This document shows, piece after piece, positions 32,175 through 34,680 of a stretch of 36,703 nucleotides of DNA. The translations under genes and the position numbers were made by a program. The DNA is from a bacterium (GTDB taxonomy: Bacteria; Patescibacteriota; Patescibacteriia; Veblenbacterales; UBA10138). The stretch covers positions 1 to 36,703 of the forward strand of contig JAGVEX010000009.1 of the NCBI GenBank assembly GCA_020057885.1, given 5' to 3'. The notes under the pieces were generated by a model that was not told the DNA's origin, made no database searches, and worked only from the letters and a program-made list of their open reading frames with translations. Numbering within the stretch: position 1 is the stretch's first letter; every line of letters starts with the position of its first letter.

Positions 32175-32222
32175 CAAAAACCACCTTCATCAGGTGGTCT
32201 AAAATGCTGGCAGGGGGTGTAG
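32175..32222 (-). repeat. Terminator plus partial tRNA-Trp 3'-end copy
   Basis: AAAAACCACCTTCATCAGGTGGTCTAAAATGC followed by TGGCAGGGGGTGTAG, the latter identical to the 3' end of tRNA-Trp at 32401. Confidence 0.6.
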
Positions 32223-32365
32223 CCTACCTACCGGCAGGCGGGGAATCCTCTTCACCCGTCCTCGCCGCAAGTCGGCTCGTCCTCCTTCAGAGCCCGGCGC
32301 TCGCTGCGACTGCCACCGGCAGTCGGTCGAGTCGCCTTCGATTCCTACCTCCACCACAAACAAGA

Positions 32366-32400
32366 AAAGAGCATTCCCGAAAATCGGAACTGCTCTTTTC
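32366..32400 (-). terminator. Terminator downstream of tRNA-Trp
   Basis: AGAAAAGAGCA...TGCTCTTTTCT hairpin. Confidence 0.7.
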
Positions 32401-32870: not shown

Positions 32871-33125
32871 TTAAGGCTTAAGTCCTTTAATTAGGCGTTC
32901 TTTTTTATCACGCCGCCACTTCTTAATCTGAACCTCTCGACTACGAGCTTCCTGATAAGAGGGGTAAAACTCATTATAAACTATTTGCTCAGGTGTATGA
33001 ATCTTAGTATATTGAGCCCCATAGCCAATCTGATGGCGCCTAAATCTTTTTTCAAGATTATTAGTTATTCCAATATATAAAGATTGATCTTTACAACGAA
33101 CTATATAAAGGTAATATCCTGCCAT
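32871..33125 (-). CDS. GIY-YIG nuclease superfamily protein (YhbQ/UPF0213-like)
   Basis: YYLYIVRCKDQSLYIGITNNLEKRFRRHQIGYGAQYTKIHTPEQIVYNEFYPSYQEARSREVQIKKWRRDKKERLI. Confidence 0.9.
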   Translation of the reverse strand: MAGYYLYIVRCKDQSLYIGITNNLEKRFRRHQIGYGAQYTKIHTPEQIVYNEFYPSYQEARSREVQIKKWRRDKKERLIKGLKP

Positions 33126-33230
33126 ATAATTAATTGCCCTTCGATTAACTCAGGGCACTCGCCTCGCTATTTGGTTTACCACGAGCGAGGCTTCGACGTT
33201 GAGCTCAGCCGAAACGCACAGCGAGTCGAG

Positions 33231-33316
33231 TGGTGGGTGGAGCAGGATTCGAACCTGCGAAGCCCGGAGGCAACTGGTTTACAGCCAGTCTCGTTTGACC
33301 ACTTCGATATCCACCC
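33231..33316 (-). tRNA. tRNA-Tyr (anticodon GTA), long variable arm, 3' CCA encoded
   Basis: GGGTGGATATCGAAGTGGTCAAACGAGACTGGCTGTAAACCAGTTGCCTCCGGGCTTCGCAGGTTCGAATCCTGCTCCACCCACCA. Confidence 0.95.
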
Positions 33317-33381
33317 GTGAACTAATCACTCGCTTCGCTCGTTCTAATTCACGGCACGCCTAAGCTACAATTGAGGCTGTG

Positions 33382-33556
33382 CCATGTACCCAAACGAAGT
33401 GAGTGGTACATGGAGCCGTTGACCCGATTGATATCGGGTGACCCTGCGCCCAGTACTGTGCTTTGCTCTAGTACTGGGTACTCCTTACCATGCTTGTCCG
33501 CCGTAGGCGGAGAGTTGTCCCGCTACGCCTACCTACCGCAGGCAGGCGAGATCTCG
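33382..33556. repeat. Array of six unrelated palindromes in the tRNA-Thr/tRNA-Tyr spacer
   Basis: CCATGTACC/GGTACATGG; ACCCGAT/ATCGGGT; CCCAGTACT/AGTACTGGG; TCCGCC/GGCGGA; GCCTACCT/AGGCAGGC; CGAGATCTCG. Confidence 0.75.
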
Positions 33557-33586
33557 CGAAGCGATGACTCTACTTCATCCCCCCAG

Positions 33587-33658
33587 AGCCGTTGCGCGGA
33601 TTTGAACCGCGGACCTACTCCTTACCATGGAGTTGCTCTACCACTGAGCTACAACGGC
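33587..33658 (-). tRNA. tRNA-Thr (anticodon GGT), no encoded CCA
   Basis: GCCGTTGTAGCTCAGTGGTAGAGCAACTCCATGGTAAGGAGTAGGTCCGCGGTTCAAATCCGCGCAACGGCT, followed by CTGGGGGG. Confidence 0.9.
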
Positions 33659-33735
33659 TCTGGGGGGACTAGCTAAGCCCTGCCTACCGCAGGCAGGTAC
33701 AACGGCACAAAAACAGAACGGTAAACTTTAAACTA

Positions 33736-34680
33736 TTAACGTTTACGATTCGTTTGTATACCAAATGAAGTGATTTTGTTTGAGGAATGAGATCTTTTTG
33801 TTTTTAATTTATCAGCTATTTTACGAATTTCCTTATCAAACTCTGGTATCTTTTGATTTTCAGGATTTACCTCCCGCAAAACATCCAAAGCGGCTTGGGC
33901 CTCGATTGGTTGCCCATTTACTATACTGAGTTCGATATAAAAGTCAAGTATCTTAGGGTTACGAGGTTCAAAACGTTTAGCATCACGCAAGTGCAAAAGT
34001 GCTTCTGATTGCAGACCTAATTCTATTAAAATATTTGCTAATTCAAGATGCGCAACTAAAGAATCTTTTATATTTAAAGCCGCCAAGTATTCAACCCTAG
34101 CATCATCCAGTCGACCTTGCCCGGCGGCTACCCTAGCCAAGCCTAAATGGGCAATCTCTATCAAACCCTGTTGAGCTAGATACTCAAAAACTTCTTGAGC
34201 CTGTTCGTACTCACGTTCCTCTAAATAAGTTTTGGCCAAACCTTCATATGCAAATAAATTATGTGGCTCCAGTTTTATAACTTCGAGGTATTTTTGTTCC
34301 GCCTCTGGCAAACGGTTATACTTTAAAGCCTCTTCAGCTTCACTCATTAATTCATCTTTTGTAGTTTGAGGAGATGAATGATGATTAATTTTATTTTGTA
34401 CTCGCTCTTCGGTGTTGCTAAAGGCTAAACGAATTTTGTTAACTTGACTGCTAAAAAAATTATTTACCGGAGTCAATTTACCGCTTAAATAATTTTTTAG
34501 ATTAGTAAGCTTTCTTTTTAATCTCAATTCTAAAAGACTATGTTTAACTGCCTGCTGGTTAAGTTCAATAATTTTTTTAGGATCAATTACCCGTAAAACC
34601 GGAATTTTTTTAATAACCAAACCTAATAAACCAAGCACTCCTAAAATCAGAAGTGCCCATAAAATACTATCGAGTACCAT
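33736..34680 (-). CDS. Membrane-anchored TPR protein
   Basis: N-terminal TM (ILWALLILGVLGLLGLVI); TPRs such as AEEALKYNRLPEAEQKYLEVIKLEPHNLFAYEGLAKTYLE. Start taken as MVLDSILW at 34680. Confidence 0.8.
   Translation of the reverse strand: MVLDSILWALLILGVLGLLGLVIKKIPVLRVIDPKKIIELNQQAVKHSLLELRLKRKLTNLKNYLSGKLTPVNNFFSSQVNKIRLAFSNTEERVQNKINHHSSPQTTKDELMSEAEEALKYNRLPEAEQKYLEVIKLEPHNLFAYEGLAKTYLEEREYEQAQEVFEYLAQQGLIEIAHLGLARVAAGQGRLDDARVEYLAALNIKDSLVAHLELANILIELGLQSEALLHLRDAKRFEPRNPKILDFYIELSIVNGQPIEAQAALDVLREVNPENQKIPEFDKEIRKIADKLKTKRSHSSNKITSFGIQTNRKR

Follow-up and report, generated by a model that had tools for sequence, protein, structure and literature searches.

A tRNA-Thr gene nested within a broken tRNA-Thr gene in a Patescibacteriota genome, and a proposed homing-type takeover of tRNA genes

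Results

The window, by which we mean the whole stretch of 36,703 nucleotides analyzed here, belongs to a patescibacterial genome of 952 kb in 21 contigs. Its minus strand carries tRNA-Thr(GGT) (33586–33658) and tRNA-Tyr(GTA) (33231–33316), as called by ARAGORN and Rfam, together with tRNA-Thr(TGT) and tRNA-Trp. The 269-nt spacer between the first two genes (33317–33585) had been described in the initial annotation as packed with palindromes, a description borne out by dinucleotide shuffles and by fold z-scores near −5 on both strands. The spacer contains six perfect hairpins with arms of at least 6 nt (mean of 1.0 in 300 dinucleotide shuffles of the same 269 nt), four with arms of at least 7 nt (mean of 0.27), and two with arms of 9 nt (mean of 0.013), counts that none of the 300 shuffles matched; for arms of at least 8 nt, one shuffle did. 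Shuffled controls thus fail to reach a comparable dyad density, ruling out chance palindromes. Examples lie at 33382–33390/33405–33413, 33422–33428/33433–33439, 33449–33457/33470–33478, 33497–33502/33506–33511, and 33503–33509/33526–33532. By hairpin density the spacer is the top 270-nt stretch of the window, and it folds with z = −5.3 on the minus strand and −5.2 on the plus strand, values equaled by none of 200 shuffles. The extended dyad said to enclose the tRNA was also confirmed: inverted repeats flank tRNA-Thr(GGT) in the arrangement TCCCCCCAGA–tRNA-Thr–CTGGGGGGA, and their duplex of −30.3 kcal/mol is the strongest among the 48 tRNA genes of the genome.

Reading along the minus strand, we find pieces of a second, broken tRNA-Thr around the intact one. 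Nucleotides 1 to 9 of this outer copy, GCCGTTGTA (33698–33706), were identified by reading the sequence, and the same piece with the same kind of palindrome occurs in the related genome G005. They are followed by the palindrome CCTGCCTGCGGTAGGCAGG (33679–33697), which a repeat search places among 24 genomic copies, and by the putative 5′ part of the outer D-arm, GCTTAGCTAG (33669–33678), assigned partly by homology with G005. Dyad analysis and sequence reading delimit the cassette that comes next, in which the left inverted repeat TCCCCCCAGA (33659–33668) and the right inverted repeat TGGGGGGA (33578–33585) enclose the intact tRNA-Thr(GGT), the only copy in the genome, at 33586–33658. The probable 3′ part of the outer D-arm, TGAAGTAGAG (33568–33577), is separated from the anticodon arm by a block of palindromes (33518–33567). 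Split alignment and sequence reading then give the start of the outer anticodon stem, CAACTC (33512–33517), and, beyond the palindrome TCCGCCTACGGCGGACAAG (33493–33511) that lies within the arm, the anticodon part with GGT, CATGGTAAGGAGTA (33479–33492). The palindrome CCCAGTACTAGAG..CAGTACTGGGC (33448–33478), a sibling of which (85% identical) adjoins a tRNA-Ser gene, precedes the variable region and an altered T-arm (33422–33447; GCAGGGTCACCCGATATCAATCGGGT in the minus-strand order), the T-arm being comparable in G005 and G001. The outer copy ends with its 3′ acceptor strand and CCA, CAACGGCTCCA (33411–33421), fully complementary to 33700–33706. Immediately 3′ of this CCA is a hairpin (33380–33410), followed by the hairpins GGCACAGCC..GGCGTGCC (33353–33383) and GTGAATTAG..TTAGTTCAC (33317–33352), the latter abutting tRNA-Tyr. 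One correction to the initial annotation is that the palindrome at 33382–33413 starts within the encoded CCA of the broken tRNA-Thr. Further along the same strand, a 106-nt palindromic repeat extends from the CCA end of tRNA-Tyr (33134–33239) and has a 93% identical copy at C15:35043, after a duplicated tRNA-Ile 3′ end. Beyond it lies a gene for an 84-aa GIY-YIG nuclease (32871–33125), whose stop codon is 16 nt before tRNA-Thr(TGT).

The tract is thus best read as a nested locus, an interpretation well supported by the sequence: an older tRNA-Thr has been split by a cassette of inverted repeats and a complete, CCA-less tRNA-Thr(GGT). The outer acceptor strands, GCCGTTG and CAACGGC, pair fully, and CCA is present in the broken copy and absent from the intact one, which sits in the outer D-loop. 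The palindromes interrupting the outer copy are unrelated to one another and lie mostly at loop positions. Split alignment with long gaps allowed recovers the outer tRNA-Thr in order around the intact one with a score of 19, against a 99th percentile of 13.3 and a maximum of 16 for control tRNAs of other isotypes. The outer D-arm pieces are short and the weakest part of the reconstruction, and automatic alignment placed the first part elsewhere than our manual reading; the counterpart in G005, where CCTGCCTGCCGGCAGGCAGG lies between GTCGATGTA and GCTCAGCTGGTA, supports the pieces read in the window.

To place the locus in context, we compared it with those of related genomes. In G003, G028, G026, and G044, tRNA-Thr(GGT) and tRNA-Tyr lie only 0 to 4 nt apart, so that the site is uninterrupted. 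A broken tRNA-Thr accompanies the intact one in 15 of the 32 genomes compared, some of them doubly or triply nested (G005 has a triple nest), with the caveat that loci from the same family do not count as independent events. The junction pattern AGCTCAGYTGGCCCCGCCAC has five matches in GTDB contigs, two of them in known Patescibacteria records (one Ca. Kerfeldbacteria); the remaining three have no tRNA nearby and were taken as chance.

This variation between relatives bears on two of the proposals for the array, an undescribed structured RNA and processing signals in a polycistronic tRNA precursor. Strong folding would suit either, as would pair-keeping changes both in the cassette stem around tRNA-Thr (three two-sided changes across three genera, a small sample) and in the family of hairpins that begin at CCA ends. 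However, the spacer is missing from several relatives, orthologous spacers range from 0 to more than 600 nt, and their hairpins differ from genome to genome with no conserved overall fold. We reject a single structured RNA because spacer length and hairpins vary in this way, and tRNAs are the sole Rfam matches in the region. A processing role is conceivable for the stem around the intact tRNA-Thr, which preserves its pairing. For the array as a whole, the absence of the spacer elsewhere and the inconstant hairpins speak against such signals, and a function at the RNA level is on balance very improbable.

Two further comparisons favor a nested cassette. A cassette of the form CCCCGCCACC–tRNA-Thr–GGTGGCGGGG is found at one and the same D-loop position in G005 and G007, members of different genera within the window's family, and also in G048, which belongs to another family. 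The G048 tRNA-Thr is identical to that of G005 at 75 of 76 positions, and because tRNA-Thr is conserved anyway (72 of 76 to G003), the shared repeats and site outweigh this identity as evidence. In G025, the outer tRNA-Thr is otherwise intact and split in the anticodon arm, and the inner and outer copies differ in the acceptor and T-stem with both still paired; the inner gene is therefore not a simple local duplicate. These observations weigh against a plain local duplication, in which generic intergenic palindromes would have landed in the decayed copy of a tRNA-Thr duplicated in place, with no homing involved. Such a history would fit the neutral landing sites that pseudogenes provide and the occurrence of one of the palindromes in intergenic DNA away from tRNAs, but tandem duplication does not yield an intact copy inside a broken one between inverted repeats, nor does duplication in place agree with the same cassette in another family or with the strong linkage to GIY-YIG genes described below. 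We regard it as unlikely.

Two tRNA-Thr loci elsewhere have different layouts. At L091 (G053:C83), the first 25 nt of tRNA-Thr(GGT) and about 80 nt behind them form a tandem repeat upstream of the intact gene, with no obvious palindromes. At L099 (G018:C8), about 235 nt interrupt tRNA-Thr at the anticodon in a stretch with no intact tRNA-Thr(GGT), and this may be a true intron rather than a nested cassette.

The palindromes themselves recur well beyond this locus. CCTGCCT..AGGCAGG occurs 24 times in the genome, compared with 0 for a reversed control, and often adjoins AATC, the T-loop motif in tRNAs; the CCTGCC palindrome is also found in non-tRNA intergenic DNA. Some copies of CCTGCCT..AGGCAGG hold a second palindrome near the tip. 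The 33382–33413 palindrome has family members that likewise begin within a CCA end, at seven intact tRNAs (Val(CAC), Val(TAC), Lys(CTT), Ala(GGC), Arg(CCT), Leu(GAG), and Leu(CAG)) and two outer copies in all, and three pairs of the family's stem have changed on both sides with pairing kept. Judged by this distribution, the palindromes are dispersed elements, neither one RNA nor plain spacer. A short inverted repeat dispersed in 24 copies is what is looked for in a MITE/REP-like element, and of the options in the initial annotation a nest of such elements came closest, although the interrupted tRNA-Thr and the intact gene nested in it had escaped notice. As a separate observation, the palindrome ATTTCGACGAGCTCAATCGAGTCG lies near the tip of CCTGCC..GGCAGG in five places, at L194, L200, L201, and L206 in the window's own genome and at L008.

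Across 43 outer tRNAs, 47 of 64 insertion points fall at loops or junctions, compared with 33.9 expected (p = 0.0006, the loci not all being independent). A preference for loops could also be expected if the hairpins were inserts at the RNA level. In that case, transcription of the nested locus would yield one precursor for both tRNAs, and the outer tRNA would mature by losing its hairpin introns. The covarying stem around the inner tRNA agrees with this possibility, as does the outer tRNA-Thr of G025, in which taking out the insert leaves a recognizable tRNA. Of 12 outer copies spliced in this way, however, only 4 are recognized, and a functional inner copy with the same anticodon is already present. 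Because the outer T-loop has lost its TTC in the window and part of the D-arm is gone in G030, splicing of the outer tRNA is unlikely, even if it is conceivable in the youngest cases. Nor did we find a group I intron match in Rfam, whether in the window at the gathering score or in 33120–33740 with E up to 1. We therefore give the RNA-level explanation a low probability and return to nested cassettes at the DNA level.

Nesting is not confined to tRNA-Thr(GGT). About 14 of the 48 tRNAs of the window's genome are flanked by a broken copy of the same tRNA (split-alignment score of at least 15). tRNA-Arg(TCG) sits within the D-loop of an outer tRNA-Arg, tRNA-Ser(CGA) is enclosed by an outer tRNA-Ser, and behind tRNA-Asp lies a half copy of the same gene, running from anticodon to CCA, with three palindromes interrupting it. 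Among the same 48 genes, 9 of the 10 tRNAs lacking CCA are embedded in a dyad, compared with 5 of the 38 with CCA (Fisher p = 1e-5).

Two other tRNA loci were noted. At L061 (G000:C20), successive truncated 5′ pieces of tRNA-Ser lie upstream of an intact tRNA-Ser(CGA), one of them with a sibling of the 33448–33478 palindrome. L064 (G000:C12:163825) holds a second tRNA-His, which scores low and lacks CCA.

Small GIY-YIG nuclease genes are closely linked to tRNA genes. Four of the six in the window's genome lie directly 5′ of an intact tRNA, namely Ser, Thr(TGT), Cys, and Asn, and at the Ser, Cys, and Asn loci a broken 5′ part of the same tRNA is found on the other side of the nuclease gene. In a class-wide sample, chosen non-randomly by match score and by genome, 42 of 79 GIY-YIG loci have a tRNA within 300 nt (≈3.7 expected), and all 59 tRNAs near those genes are on the strand of the nuclease. 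Of 41 loci tested, 21 have a broken copy of the neighboring tRNA whose score exceeds the 99th percentile of the controls, and at many loci the GIY-YIG ORF has the 5′ half of a broken tRNA on one side and the same tRNA, intact, on the other. In G030, for example, nucleotides 1 to 36 of tRNA-Arg, identical at 36 of 36 positions, immediately precede the GIY-YIG ORF, and at another locus tRNA-Leu is split at nucleotides 35/36 around the nuclease gene and an intact tRNA. Outside the class, in a phylum-wide sample, the link is weaker, with a tRNA at 7 of 29 loci and a clear broken copy at one.

The 84-aa protein encoded in the window matches PF01541 with 63.7 bits, and Y7, Y17, G19, R27, and E64 are invariant across 11 tRNA-linked GIY-YIG proteins. 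The domain thus has the conserved Tyr, Arg, and Glu looked for in a homing endonuclease, and at many loci, though not at the window's Thr(GGT) site, its gene lies at the disrupted or protected target. These parallels make the small GIY-YIG nucleases the likely engine of tRNA takeover. For Thr(GGT) this role is assigned by analogy, because in the window's genome there is no GIY-YIG gene between the outer and inner tRNA-Thr.

Discussion

Together, these data point to a homing-type process in which cassettes carrying a replacement tRNA take over tRNA genes and the dead copy then collects hairpins; on the sequence evidence we consider this probable. A small GIY-YIG nuclease of the kind found here beside many tRNA genes would cut a tRNA gene, and repair would copy in a cassette bringing the replacement, amounting to homing-type gene conversion. 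At the locus in the window, a nuclease-driven or recombination-driven cassette would have converted the old tRNA-Thr gene and supplied a substitute, with which the cell would survive and on which it would then depend. The displaced copy, no longer under selection, would gather small mobile hairpins inserting into tRNA-like loops, and the nuclease gene could also disappear, as may have happened at the window's Thr(GGT) locus. The anatomy, the uninterrupted sites, the recurrence of nesting, and the linkage to GIY-YIG genes are direct observations, whereas cleavage, the direction of transfer, and the movement of hairpins are steps that we infer. A more general formulation, to which we give about even chances, is that mobile units with a tRNA gene as cargo (a complete tRNA and inverted repeats, sometimes joined by a GIY-YIG nuclease) invade tRNA genes of the same isotype at a loop, assume their function, and by successive takeovers leave tRNAs nested like Russian dolls, accompanied by hairpin insertion aimed at the tips of stem-loops.

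If takeover of this kind occurs, selfish cassettes would repeatedly seize essential tRNA genes of Patescibacteria and possess the sole working copy of the host. A concrete, testable role would fall to the numerous small GIY-YIG genes in such tiny genomes, and odd tRNA flanks and missing CCA ends would be explained. Annotators would also be warned that tRNA "spacers" in these genomes hold gene fossils of successive takeovers.

We know of several systems that share parts of this arrangement. SegB of phage T4 is a free-standing GIY-YIG endonuclease encoded in the tRNA-Arg/tRNA-Ile intergenic region that promotes inheritance of the tRNA region (PMC2988022). The loci described here likewise place a small stand-alone GIY-YIG gene in a tRNA region, but they lie on bacterial chromosomes, with the ORF flanked by a broken copy of a tRNA on one side and a complete one on the other, and with many isotypes involved. 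Group I introns interrupt tRNA anticodon loops (PMC3984707) and have been noted in CPR bacteria (PMC8172020). They resemble the cassettes in anticodon-loop insertion and in their link to homing endonucleases; here, in contrast, the insert carries a second tRNA, and the window has no intron match.

Similarly, the hairpins recall the repetitive hairpin elements of sponge mitochondria (PMC2800124), the GC clusters of yeast (PMC4478555), and fungal double-hairpin elements. All are short and dispersed, change in sequence, and sometimes lie within genes, whereas those described here have a bacterial host and are concentrated in tRNA genes and their remnants. By description, the hairpins also resemble the palindromic elements of Rickettsia, which are palindromic insertions within genes of a reduced bacterial genome. 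There the host gene tolerates its insert, whereas here it is replaced. Our search of the open-access literature found no account of tRNA-in-tRNA nesting or of bacterial GIY-YIG/tRNA cassettes, and we found no known family that delivers a complete substitute tRNA to a loop of the gene it targets.

Integrative elements insert at tRNA 3′ ends and rebuild them. Exact 15-nt repeats of the tRNA's own 3′ end, 160 to 190 nt downstream of Trp, Gln(TTG), Pro(CGG), and Ile(GAT), resemble their traces, although the Thr(GGT) architecture does not: cassettes of the Thr type bring an entire tRNA and are inserted in the D- or anticodon loop. In these short elements, the less than 200 nt between the tRNA and its 3′-end repeat leave no room for an integrase.

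One of these repeats lies within the window. At 32199–32400, the sequence downstream of tRNA-Trp contains a terminator-like hairpin, the T-arm in inverted copy (32335–32349), palindromes rich in GC, and the last 15 nt of the gene repeated exactly. Gln(TTG) and Pro(CGG) share this downstream layout, and Ile(GAT) has the 15-nt repeat in common with them.
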